DNA of 64,000 bases, from the NCBI RefSeq assembly GCF_950295315.1, contig NC_080164.1:9242502-9306501 (forward strand), written 5' to 3'. The DNA comes from Erinaceus europaeus. Lineage: Eukaryota > Chordata > Mammalia > Eulipotyphla > Erinaceidae. The translations under genes and the position numbers were made by a program. Below the pieces are notes generated by a model. That model was given only the letters and a program-made list of their open reading frames with translations, was not told where the DNA came from and made no database searches. This document shows, piece after piece, positions 3,474 through 64,000 of this stretch (within the stretch, counting starts at the first letter, position 1; each line of letters begins with the position of its first letter).

Positions 3474-3790
3474 AAAAAGAAGGAGGAGGAGAAGGAGAAG
3501 AAGAAAGAAGAAGGAGGAGGAGGAGGAGGAGGAGGAGGAGGAGGAGGAGGAGAAAAAGAAGAAGAAGGAGAAGGAGAAGAAGAAGAAGGAGAAGGAGAAG
3601 GAGAAGGAGGAGAAGGAGGAGAAGAAGGAGGAGAAGAAGGAGGAGAAGAAGGAGGAGAAGAAGGAGGAGAAGAAGGAGGAGAAGGAGGAGGAGGAGAAGG
3701 AGGAGGAGGAGGAGGAGGAGGAGGAGGAGGAGGAGGAGGTGGTGGTGGTGGTGGTGGTGGTGATGATGATGATAATGATGATGATAAATG
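3474..3790. repeat. Purine-only microsatellite (GAA/GGA)n followed by (GGT)n(GAT)n
   Basis: This directly follows the A-rich tail of L1 copy A, so it probably grew from that tail. About 260 bp is pure purine on the plus strand (GGA, GAA, GAAG mixtures) and then switches to GGT and GAT triplets at about 3738-3788. The long open frames across it on both strands (poly-E/K one way, poly-S/L the other) are composition artefacts. Confidence 0.95.
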
Positions 3791-11330: not shown

Positions 11331-11536
11331 TTGCTTCTGACAGCTGGACGATGACTTAGACTCACCAATGACTCTCACCCATGGCCTTTGCACCACAACC
11401 TCATCAGCCTGATATGCTCAGCCTCTCATAGCTTTACTTCCTCAGTCTCTGGTCCAGTGACCCGTACACCAGCGACATCCCTCATCATATTCTTTTTGTT
11501 GTTGTTCTTGTTGTTAATTTATTTTATAAAGTAAAA

Positions 11537-11866
11537 GGGATGCATTGGATCGACCTTCCCGTGGTGCATCCCGTGATTTACCAATTCACTGGGGAAACTG
11601 ACGATCCTTCCTAGCCGACTGAATCCACATGGATCCCAGTCACTTTCAAAGCCAGCAACAAGCAGCTCCTGACAGATTTCAAGCTGTTGGTCCTGCTCTT
11701 CAAGTCCTCCAACTTAATGTTGAGGGGCTATCCTTTGCCCAAACGCGTTACCCACATAGTCAACGACTGCCACCTCTCCAGATTCAAAGGAGGTTTCGAA
11801 ACTTTACATCAGGCTCAACCTGATGTGTTGACTGGCTACGGAAGAAGGGCAAACGCTAGAAGAAGA
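11537..11866 (+). mobile_element. 330-bp internal-deletion derivative of a Jockey/CR1-like LINE
   Basis: Flanked by near-identical ATAAAGTAAAA (11526-11536) and ATAAAATAAAA (11867-11877). The left about 205 bp holds a roughly 92-bp leader and the start of an open frame (ATG at 11629) reading to LQLNVEGLS, the first strand motif of the apurinic-type endonuclease of this LINE group. From about 11750 it switches to the last about 115 bp of the same element's ORF, closely matching the 62774-62890 region of the minus-strand copy ('cacatagtcaacgactgcc', 'gaagaagggcaaacgctag'). A one-base deletion near 11825 shifts the end frame. Both LINE ends without the middle indicates a non-autonomous derivative mobilised in trans. 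That function is inferred. Confidence 0.82.
11629..11823 (+). pseudogene. Truncated endonuclease-start frame of the LINE derivative
   Basis: A 64-codon frame. The first about 40 residues look like the N-terminus of a non-LTR retrotransposon polyprotein, with the LNVEGL endonuclease motif at about residues 29-34. After the deletion junction the frame reads the 3' end of the element out of phase and stops. It cannot encode a working enzyme. Its value is as a marker of where the parent element's ORF begins and how short its leader is. Confidence 0.7.
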
Positions 11867-11974
11867 ATAAAATAAAAACATTGATAAGACCCTAGGTTAA
11901 GAGGGGTACAATTCCACACAATTTCCAACACCAGGGTTCCATATCCCATTCCCTCCCTTGAAAGTTTTCCTATT

Positions 11975-24332: not shown

Positions 24333-25532
24333 ATCTCTCTCTTTAAATAACAAAATGTTCAAAATAACTTCAACAACAAAAGAGAAAGAGAGAGCACAAT
24401 CATCCCAGAGGAGACTCTAGAACCTCAAAGTCAGTTTAACTATAAAAAAAAAATGGTGGTGACCTCCAGAGGCAGGGCTACAGAGCAGCAGCAGCTGTGT
24501 TTCTCTCCCCTCCTCTCCTGGGTCAACAAGGAATACCAAAGGAGACCACCTGGGACTGCAACAAGTCAATACTAGCATGGCTTCAGGAAGCCACCAAATC
24601 ACCAGTGAGTACAAACACGTGTGAATTGTAGACAGAGAGGAGCCTAGGGAGAGATTAAGTGGCTGGTAACAGTCAGGCAGTTTACCAGTTAAGATGCCAT
24701 CTCCAGTCTGTTTCACCAACAAAAAGATGGATGAAGGGAGGAGAGGACCCTCCCACAAGACTCACCAAATGCAACTGTGAGTCCCCAAGCTACTGTCCTC
24801 AGATTTTAGAGGAGAAGGGGAGAGGCCCTGTGCTGAAAGTAGGAGATAGAAAACTAACGAGGAAACTCAGGAGAAGATCTATAGGTCAGTGGCTTAGCGG
24901 TGGGACTGTGAGAGTCTCTGCATTACCAATGGATTATCTCTGCCCCCCTTTGCTTTATCTCTTGCTCAGTAGTCAGTGATTAAGTTAAGAAGCCAACTTA
25001 TAGCTTAAATGCCCTCAGGCTCCCATAGCCTACAGGGAAGAAAAAGGACAAAAGAGGCTTTTAAGCCACTGTGCTCCAACTCAGGGATTAAAATAATATT
25101 CATATTGAAACAACTGTCAATTTCCACAACTGTGAACCCTTTAATTACTCATCACAGCTAATGAAGTTGAAACAGTTATCAAAAACCTTCCCAAGAATAA
25201 AATCCTGGACCAGATGGTTTTACTAATAAATTCTACAAAATCTTCAAAGAATAACTAATACTTCTACTTTTAAAAGTCATCCAGAAGATTGAAGATACTG
25301 GAATACTCCCAGATTCTATAAAGCCAGCATCACTTTGATTCCAAAAGCATACAGGGACACAACCAAAAAATAAAACTACAGACCAATATCTCTGATGAAC
25401 ATAGATGCTTAAATATTGAACAAAATTCTAGTGAACTGGAAACAGAAGTATATTAAAAAGACTGTTCATCATGACCAAATGGGGTTTATCCCAGGAATGC
25501 AAGCTTGATTTAATATATGTAAATCAATCAAT

Positions 25533-26309
25533 GTGATCCACCACATCAATAAAAGCAAGAACAAAAACCACATGTTCATATCAATAGATGCAGAGAAAGC
25601 CTTTGACAAAATCCAGCATCCCTTTATGATCAAAATATTACAAGAAATGGGAATAGATGGAAAATTCCTGAAGATAGTGGAGTCTATATATAGCAAACCT
25701 ACAGCCAACATCATACTCAATGGTGAAAAACAGGAAGTATGTCCTCTCAGATCAGGTACTAGACAGGGTTGTCCACTATCAACATTATTATTCAAAATAG
25801 TGTTGGAAGTTCTTGCCATAGCAATCAGGCAGGAGCAAGCAATCAAAAGGGTGCAGATTGGAAGAGAAGAAGTCAAACTCTCCCTATTTGCAAATGACAT
25901 GGTAGTATACATAGAAAAACCTAAGGAATCCAGCAAGAAGCTTATGAAAATCATCAGGCAATACAGTAAGGTGTCAGGCTACAAAATTCACATTCAAAAG
26001 TCAGTGGCATTCCTCTATGCAAACACTAAGTTAGAAGAAATTGAAATCCAGAAATCAATTCCTTTTACTATAGCAACAAAAACAATAAAATATCTAAGAA
26101 CAAGCCTAACCAAAGAAGTGAAAGATTTGTATATTGAAAATTATGAGTCACTACTCATGGAAATTGAAAAAGACACAAAGAAATGGAAAGATATTCCATG
26201 TTCATGGGTTGGAAGAACTAACATCATCAAAATGAATGTACTACCCAGAGCCATATACAAATTTAATGCTATCCCCATCAATATCCCAAACACATTCTTA
26301 GGAGATTAG
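25533..26309 (+). pseudogene. L1 ORF2 reverse transcriptase, 258-codon open segment with catalytic D-to-N change
   Basis: The longest uninterrupted L1 frame in the window. Visible motifs in order: motif A in [17 protein letters not shown] (residues about 14-30), fingers/palm segment [12 protein letters not shown] (about 76-87), catalytic loop L-F-A-N-D-M (about 118-123) where the usual F-A-D-D has its first aspartate (residue 121) replaced by asparagine (codon AAT at 25893-25895), then the thumb and the [25 protein letters not shown] post-RT region. An intact ORF2p is about five times longer; here the endonuclease and C-terminus are out of frame or deleted. The metal-binding Asp is required by all reverse transcriptases, so this product would be inactive. 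Whether the mutation arose before or after insertion cannot be told. Confidence 0.9.
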
Positions 26310-37524: not shown

Positions 37525-39268
<1,744 letters not shown>

Positions 39269-46525: not shown

Positions 46526-46651
46526 CTACAAAAGATACATGGAGGGCTACAAAAGATACATGGAGGGCTACAAAAGATACACGGACTTGTACAAAAGATA
46601 CATGGAGGGCTACAAAAGATACACAGATGTCTACAAAAGATACATGTAAGT
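46526..46651. repeat. 21-bp minisatellite, six units
   Basis: Unit 'ctacaaaagatacatggaggg' repeated six times with substitutions in units 3-6. It begins exactly in ancient L1 sequence, so the array expanded from an L1 segment. The matching 7-residue periodic frames on both strands follow from the 21-bp period. Confidence 0.95.
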
Positions 46652-60025: not shown

Positions 60026-60084
60026 AAACCAGAGAAGAGCAGATGCAAAGGCTAAGTGCACTTGGCAAGGAATATAGGCATCTC

Positions 60085-60288
60085 AAAGGTACAGACGAGA
60101 TCGGGTGTGTTCAGGGTGGCATGGCCATAGACATCAAAGGTACAGACGAGATCAGGTGTGTTCAGGGTGGCATGGCCATAGACATCAAAGGTACAGACGA
60201 GATCAGGTGTGTTCAGGGTGGCATGGCCATAGACATCAAAGGTACAGACGAGATCAGGTGTGTTCAGGGTGGCATGGCCATAGACATC
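60085..60288 (-). repeat. Minisatellite of four 51-bp units derived from the 5' end of 5S rRNA
   Basis: Units start at 60085, 60136, 60187 and 60238. Units 2-4 are identical and unit 1 differs by one base (G for A at about 60104). In each unit 41 bases, read on the minus strand (GTCTATGGCCATGCCACCCT and so on to CTCGTCTG), match nucleotides 1-41 of vertebrate 5S rRNA at about 37 positions. The differences are transitions, three of them at CpG sites. The other 10 bases ('TACCTTTGAT' in the minus sense) link the units. The internal 5S promoter boxes (about nt 50 onward) are absent, so the units cannot be transcribed as 5S genes. Confidence 0.88.
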
Positions 60289-60870
60289 AATCGTACAGCT
60301 TGTGACTGCAGCGTCTCAATACCCTCCACCTCCAGCAGATGCCAAAGGAAGCAGATCTGAGCCCAGATCACAGAGATCGGAAAATGCCTCCCTTCTTGTC
60401 CAGACTCCCAAAGTCCCACTCATTGTGCTACCTCCCTCCCCCCATCCTGTGTGGCCTTCCCTTTCTACCTACCCATATCCTGCTCTCCAGAGAGCTGGTG
60501 CTTAGCTGCAGGAAAGGGAAGTCAGTCAATATATGTTCCCAACCTCTGGTCCCAAACTGGTAACCCGGGGAGATGCTCTTCTCACAAATCCTGATTCTTC
60601 TGCAAAGTCTTCCTACAAGCTTTCTTCCTTGTCCCAACATCCTAGAGCCCATTAAACCCATTTACACTTTCAGGTGGGGACTATTTGAAAAAGAGAATCA
60701 GGTTTCAGTCAGTCTCTACACCCCAAGATCTGTGAGCCTCCTCAGTGGTTCCAATCTCAGGCATGGACACCTTGACAGAGTCCAAGGAACAACATGTTCT
60801 GTCCAGGATTTTACTGGAAGCCTAAATAAAGCTCCTGAAAATTAAACCTACTTCTTTTTTCTATAGAGTT
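60289..60870. other. Non-coding sequence, nothing recognised
   Basis: Frames of 67-90 codons without domains. Confidence 0.45.
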
Positions 60871-62761: not shown

Positions 62762-64000
62762 CCACTTCTTCTTCTAGCGTTTGCCCTTCTTCCGTAGCCA
62801 GTCAACAGCATCAGGTTGAGCCTGATGTAAAGTTTCGAGACCTCCTTTGAATCTGGAGAGGTGGCAGTCATTGACTATGTGGGTCATAGTCTGTCTGTAG
62901 CCGCAGGGGCAGTTCGGTTCGTCTCTGGCTCCCCAGCGATGGAACATAGCGGCGCACCGGCCGTGGCCTGTTCCATAGCGATTGAGGAGGGCCCAATCAT
63001 AACGTGCTAGGTCAAAGCCGGGTGGACGCTTGCAGGGGTCTGTGATGAGGTGTTTGTTCTTTACCTCAGCTGACTGCCAACTCTGTTTCCAAGAGTCTGG
63101 AACAGAGAAGTTCAGTGTAGGCATAGGGGACCGGATTGGGTGACGAGACGTCAAGCGTTGGACAGGGTGGGCGAAGATATCCGCGTATATTGGCAGGTCC
63201 GGTCGAGCGTAGACGTGGGAAATGAACTTAGATGATGCCGCATCCTGACGAATATCTGGTGGGGCGATGTTGCTAAGAACTGGCAGCCATGGAACTGGGG
63301 TGGAACGGATGGTTCCAGAAATTATCCTCATGGAGGAATATAATTTGGAATCAACCAAGTGGACATGGGGGCTACGGAACCATACTGGGGCACAGTATTC
63401 TGCAGTGGAATAACATAATGCCAGAGACGATGATCGTAGTGTGGAAGCGCTCGCGCCCCATGAGGAGCTGGCCAGTCTTGCAATGTTATTCCTCGCACCC
63501 ACCTTTGCTGCAGTTTTTATGAGATGTTTGTGAAATGACAGGGTGCGATCGAGAGTAACGCCAAGATAGACTGGCTGGGCTTCATGCCGGATTCTCATAT
63601 CACCAAGCTGCACATTAAGCTCACGCGAGGCCGAGGCATGGTGTAGATACAAAACAGATGATACCGTTTTTGCAGTGCTAGGGATTAGTCGCCATTTTTT
63701 ACAGTAATCAGATATCAGAGACATGTCTTTCGTGAGTGTTTCCTCAAGGATGTCGAACTTGGATGCCTGAGTTGCACAGCAGATGTCATCGGCGTAGATG
63801 AACTTCCTTGAAGAAGTTTCTGGGAGGTCATTGATGTAAATATTAAATAGCGTAGGAGCCAGAACAGAGCCCTGGGGGAGGCCACTTGAGACAAGTCTCC
63901 ATCTGCTAGACTTGTCACCCAGATGCACCCGGAATCTTCTGTTTTGGAGAAGAAACGATATAGTGTTGGCCACCCATGGAGGCAAGCATCTTGAGATCTT
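62762..64000 (-). mobile_element. Jockey/CR1-like non-LTR retrotransposon, 3' part, open at window edge
   Basis: Minus strand. It runs from the window edge to a very short 3' end: the ORF stops at 62776-62774 and is followed only by a GAAGAAGAAG-type tail before unrelated sequence. No L1-like 3' UTR or poly-A is present. The base composition is richer in G+C and CpG than the surrounding DNA. A short derivative with the same 3' end lies at 11537-11866. The 5' end is outside the window. Confidence 0.88.
62774..64000 (-). CDS. Reverse transcriptase C-terminal half of a Jockey/CR1-group LINE polyprotein (partial)
   Basis: The frame is open for 408 codons from the right edge with no stop. Numbering from the Leu codon at 63985: palm motif SGLPQGSVLAPTLFNIYIND (residues 34-53), catalytic FIYADD (62-67; YADD at 63796-63785), KKWRLIPSTAKT, then YLGVTLDRTLSF, the shape of the primer-grip motif in Jockey, CR1 and related clades. 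A conserved connection region (ARNNIARLASSSWGAS, ALCYSTAEYCAPVWFRS) and a C-terminal Cys/His motif CPCG-x7-H-x4-C (residues 359-374) follow, then RFKGG and stop. Endonuclease and fingers should lie upstream, outside the window. The enzyme would reverse-transcribe its own RNA at a nicked target. It is not L1 ORF2: L1 has FADD and a different C-terminus. Motif architecture resembles LINEs common in arthropods, cnidarians and molluscs. The intact catalytic residues and unbroken frame suggest a recent arrival, though the exact clade is not assigned. Confidence 0.88.
   Translation of the reverse strand, partial: KISRCLPPWVANTISFLLQNRRFRVHLGDKSSRWRLVSSGLPQGSVLAPTLFNIYINDLPETSSRKFIYADDICCATQASKFDILEETLTKDMSLISDYCKKWRLIPSTAKTVSSVLYLHHASASRELNVQLGDMRIRHEAQPVYLGVTLDRTLSFHKHLIKTAAKVGARNNIARLASSSWGASASTLRSSSLALCYSTAEYCAPVWFRSPHVHLVDSKLYSSMRIISGTIRSTPVPWLPVLSNIAPPDIRQDAASSKFISHVYARPDLPIYADIFAHPVQRLTSRHPIRSPMPTLNFSVPDSWKQSWQSAEVKNKHLITDPCKRPPGFDLARYDWALLNRYGTGHGRCAAMFHRWGARDEPNCPCGYRQTMTHIVNDCHLSRFKGGLETLHQAQPDAVDWLRKKGKR

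Follow-up and report, generated by a model that had tools for sequence, protein, structure and literature searches.

The window analysed here, a stretch of 64,000 nucleotides from the hedgehog Erinaceus europaeus, ends inside the 3′ part of what was probably once an autonomous LINE of the Vingi type (62766-64000, minus strand). Its 3′ end is set at the last base that it has in common with a second copy in the same window, while its 5′ half, which includes the endonuclease, lies outside the 64 kb. The feature that defines the element is an open reverse transcriptase (RT) frame of 408 codons plus a stop (62774-64000, minus strand), in which positions 62777-64000 are free of stops up to the window edge and the terminator occupies 62774-62776. 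No other stretch of the window is free of stops over such a length, the runner-up having 266 codons, and the chance that a random frame would stay open over 408 codons is about 3e-9 by a simple estimate (61/64 per codon). The translated frame matches the second half of the Pfam RVT_1 profile at residues 18-149 (E 1.3e-11), is followed by the C-terminal part of the protein, and contains the motifs YADD and YLGVTLDR and a terminal CPCG...H...C (C-x-C-x7-H-x4-C). An RNase H domain was sought in the window frame, taken to its own stop, in its closest database match (P0001) and in six long relatives, and none of the eight proteins gave a match at E values up to 10 in a scan run with the HMMER filters on and without a positive control. 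The stop codon directly abuts a short AAG-repeat tail (62766-62776, minus strand) with virtually no 3′ UTR between them, and the second copy has the same tail.

The element also stands apart in its base composition. The CpG observed/expected ratio is 0.69 in 62771-64000 versus 0.14 in the remainder of the window, and it lies above all 1231 windows of the same length sampled every 50 bases outside the element, among which the maximum was 0.40. The open frame, the RVT_1 match, the motifs and the CpG excess are real and far beyond chance. The open RT frame with YADD, LGVTLDR and CPCG..H..C and the CpG-rich composition described in the earlier note are thus all borne out, and the LINE appears to be young.

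The related fragment that had been reported some 50 kb away is likewise real. It lies on the opposite strand at 11750-11867 (plus strand) and consists of the 36 final codons plus the tail; aligned with 62766-62884 it agrees in 116 of 119 columns (97.5% identity, one gap; E 3e-52 in a comparison of the whole window). At 11629-11742 (plus strand) the same copy carries codons 1-38 of the endonuclease ORF (MDPSHF...LQLNVEGLSFAQ), which encode MDPSHFQSQQQAAPDRFQAVGPALQVLQLNVEGLSFAQ and were recognized in a blastp search of 65 relatives with 930 residues or more; the product matches the N-termini of full-length relatives, with its best match at residues 14-53 of P0128 (E 2e-9). A probable 5′ leader spans 11537-11628 (plus strand), its outer boundary being drawn from a candidate target-site duplication of 10 out of 11 bases (11526-11536 versus 11867-11877), which we treat as weak and do not rely on because 28 of 280 control windows equalled or bettered it. 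Since the 5′ and 3′ parts lie in different frames and there is in addition a one-base deletion, the second copy is unable to make the protein of the element, and judged by its sequence organization it is a non-autonomous derivative that arose by internal deletion and retained the element's start and its tail. The deletion junction itself (11743-11749, ACGCGTT) can be assigned to neither end and offers a lead on the origin of such derivatives. Taken together, the high CpG content and the 97.5% identity between the two copies show that the family was recently active.

A protein search with the window frame recovered 1272 proteins at E <= 0.001 among 4165 candidates. The closest of them, P0001, covers 100% of the window frame at 96% identity and is encoded on a 2-kb ENA contig, while the other 119 of the best 120 of the 1272 matches are 42-60% identical. 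Within these best 120 are an eel protein (60% identical over 71% of the frame), a turtle protein (53% over 82%), and proteins from a pseudoscorpion, beetles and a planthopper (43-48%). A further search from the longer relative P0009, in which the 7985 candidates sharing the most words were scored, gave among its best 120 matches many proteins of ~1000 residues in which a single ORF joins the endonuclease and RT domains; their contigs mostly measure 3-5 kb, and the matches include proteins from a sandfly, aphids and a pseudoscorpion that are 46-50% identical to P0009. The best PDB matches of P0009 are LINE-1 ORF2p and R2. No match in the two lists of best 120 relatives was labelled Vingi, and a scan of viral contigs with the window frame returned three matching stretches, none of them a relative. 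Residues 1-20 of P0001 resemble the antisense of the element (window positions 63136-63195, plus strand; 85% over 20 residues, E 3e-5), and from this similarity the P0001 contig may hold two pieces of the family placed head to head, through a nested or rearranged insertion or as an assembly chimera.

The relatives also allow the state of the window copy to be assessed. Among the 182 relatives, which are those of the 208 fetched proteins that have at least 395 residues, with P0001 excluded, conservation reaches 95% or more in 78 columns, of which four are changed in the window copy and one in P0001. Moreover, the window copy has lost one codon at a column that is ungapped in all 182 relatives. 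It differs from P0001 at 15 positions, some of them derived in P0001, which is therefore also imperfect as a master sequence. Hence the earlier description of the frame as unbroken is true of its stops, of which there are none over 408 codons, but not of its protein, in which a codon is missing and near-invariant residues are changed. An open frame may survive by chance in a copy that is only a few percent diverged, and a stop-free frame should not be taken as a sign of activity. Given the residue changes and the lost codon, it seems doubtful that a working protein could be made from the window copy, which on comparison with its relatives is probably a decaying copy, young but no longer fully functional.

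A partial check of the claim that every L1 around the element is broken found, as the longest RT stretch outside the element, 266 stop-free codons at 25509-26306 (plus strand), which match reverse transcriptase at E 1e-26 and are presumably a fairly long intact piece of L1 ORF2. A stop-free stretch of 181 codons at 38363-38905 (plus strand) has sub-threshold Pfam matches only; many of these hit coiled coils, and two hit the trimerization and RBD-like domains of L1 ORF1. Tandem repeats include a 51-base unit at 60083-60298 (4.2 copies, 98% matches), ~2.5 kb from the LINE, in which a repetitive frame stays open for 105 codons, a 21-base unit at 46526-46646 (5.8 copies), and an AGG array at 3481-3739 (86 copies, 85% matches) that is spanned by a stop-free frame of 202 codons. 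The window also has 14 tRNA-like SINE sites within two mismatches of a 13-base core, where ~1-2 would be expected by a simple estimate made with no control run, and we take these sites to resemble the SINEs of hedgehogs.

The relationships of the window copy were examined in two RT trees. The quick tree combined the window frame with 71 of the 208 fetched proteins, and the careful tree retained 62 rows after 10 rows with long branches or near-duplicates had been removed, two pseudoscorpion rows among them. In the careful tree, whose bootstrap values were high but not fully settled, the window copy and P0001 group with P0002 and P0003 (support 95/94) on a long stem of 0.63, and a branch with 100/99 support places the window copy in a set of 52 rows with the eel and the turtle and without the seven identified arthropod rows that were kept (pseudoscorpion, two aphids, two beetles, planthopper and sandfly). 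AU tests did not reject trees in which the window copy and P0001 were held with the arthropod side, defined as the identified arthropods plus four, or three, further rows (p 0.481 quick, 0.102 careful), or with the turtle (p 0.605 quick, 0.133 careful), nor did they reject those in which the window copy was placed with the eel pair (p 0.166 careful) or with the eel, P0007 and the turtle together (p 0.554 quick). In the quick analysis two of the three constrained trees, including the one constrained to the turtle, outscored the free tree. Hence, in spite of high bootstrap values, the RT tree decides neither for horizontal arrival nor for descent, since the AU tests reject none of the arthropod, turtle and eel placements, and no near donor is offered by this tree.

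We propose that the element represents the 3′ portion of a LINE, very likely of the Vingi-1 family, which would have been inserted by target-primed reverse transcription, a reading that we hold with high confidence. Vingi-1 fits a LINE that lacks a detectable RNase H, is young in a mammal with hedgehog-like SINEs and has an internally deleted derivative. Vingi was reportedly described by Kojima, Kapitonov and Jurka in 2011 as a new clade that is sister to Ingi and lacks RNase H, that had recently expanded in two species of hedgehog, and that includes 11 non-autonomous families formed by internal deletion; horizontal transfer was said to be implied, with vertical descent not ruled out. The proteins analysed here agree with that account. 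The window frame encodes a non-LTR reverse transcriptase, RNase H is undetected in all eight proteins, and the one internally deleted copy in the window (11629-11867) has both ends without the middle, as would a derivative of Vingi-1_EE. Endonuclease and RT are joined in the relatives of ~1000 residues, and the window itself shows nothing of the endonuclease ORF beyond the 38 initial codons kept in the second copy. Membership in Vingi is thus likely, judged on features and published descriptions. Since the family was described from hedgehogs in 2011, and horizontal transfer proposed then, the family is not new, and rather than a new invader the element is most likely an ordinary member of that known family. 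Vingi-1N3_EE is credited with 311 copies at <1% divergence in Erinaceus europaeus, and hedgehog Vingi is counted among likely horizontal transfers (PMC3183009). Among the papers listed by our search of open-licence literature, no later one is devoted to Vingi in hedgehogs.

A complete master element would encode a single protein of ~1000 residues, whose endonuclease would nick the target and whose RT would copy the element's own RNA starting from the 3′ tail, and the window copy would have been placed in this manner by target-primed reverse transcription. For the second, internally deleted copy we envisage mobilization in trans by the protein of complete copies.

Several explanations for the presence of such an element in a hedgehog have to be weighed. 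Contamination of the assembly by invertebrate DNA would fit a frame that stops at the window edge and a composition unlike that of the remainder, but the window contains, at a distance of 51 kb, the internally deleted second copy of the family, whose identity to the element is 97.5% across 119 columns, and tRNA-like SINE sites (61374 and 61058) lie 1.4-1.7 kb past the 3′ end of the element. The element belongs to the hedgehog genome because of this second copy, which in the main disposes of contamination, a possibility that the earlier note had already thought unlikely and to which we attach next to no credence. The same note suggested horizontal acquisition of a Jockey/CR1-like LINE, with ectoparasites such as ticks as possible vectors; in the form of a new acquisition from an arthropod, we regard this as very improbable. 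Arthropod relatives do exist, both of the window frame (43-48%) and of P0009 (46-50%), and arthropod-side placement is not rejected by the AU tests (p 0.48 and 0.10). However, the identified relatives with higher identity among the matches listed are the eel and the turtle, the 100/99 branch divides these and the window copy from the seven arthropod rows, and the family was already in print from hedgehogs. A recent transfer would moreover predict a near-identical arthropod sequence if the donor had been sampled, and there is none among the matches listed. The proposal of ticks finds no support, as no tick is present among the identified matches listed. The arthropod rows lie beyond the 100/99 branch, although the AU tests do not reject an arthropod placement.

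Two readings that concern the deeper history of Vingi deserve more weight. Under vertical inheritance the lineage would have descended from early amniotes and been lost in most mammals, which we consider doubtful but a serious candidate. Trees that join the window copy to the turtle are not rejected, but the careful tree joins it to P0002 and P0003 rather than to the turtle, and the high CpG content together with the identity of the two copies indicates recent activity, which descent permits yet does not explain. Against descent, the 2011 study also reportedly found Vingi in none of the 33 other mammals then sequenced. On the other side, published sources record Vingi from reptiles and Vingi remains (X12_LINE) in the human genome (PMC5753468) and tabulate one pre-amniote Vingi protein fossil (PMC9004415), and it is the old remnants in human that keep descent among the explanations to be considered. 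The other reading is that Vingi entered hedgehogs horizontally from a perhaps aquatic animal lineage, related to P0002 and P0003 and so far encountered in metagenomes only, and that complete copies are still jumping. We consider this combination rather unlikely, but if it were true the element would rank among the very few non-L1 LINEs still alive in placental mammals. On the preferred identification with Vingi-1, whichever way the family arrived, the window very likely adds one Vingi copy and one clear internally deleted example to a published non-L1 LINE that recently expanded in one mammalian lineage, and for which horizontal transfer is suspected but not proved.

Comparison with known LINE groups places the element more precisely. 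Jockey and CR1 elements have an apurinic-type endonuclease, an RT and a terminal CCHC-like motif, and they typically carry a separate ORF1. By description they are set apart from the long relatives found here, which have one endonuclease and RT ORF of ~1000 residues on contigs with little space for another. Vingi is a better fit than the Jockey/CR1-like label first given to the element. The Ingi clade (trypanosome ingi), which is said to be the sister of Vingi, also consists of endonuclease and RT LINEs, but Ingi elements carry RNase H, for which the window element has no match. Among eulipotyphlans a parallel is provided by RTE1_Sar of the common shrew, a LINE that is patchily distributed like the hedgehog element but belongs to the RTE clade, and for which horizontal acquisition from a nematode donor is argued and absence in the hedgehog reported (PMC6542046). 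The closest counterparts of the window element are Vingi-1_EE and the non-autonomous Vingi-1N_EE of Erinaceus europaeus, which it resembles, by description and with no known difference, in its mammalian host, its young copies, its RT without RNase H and its derivative formed by internal deletion.
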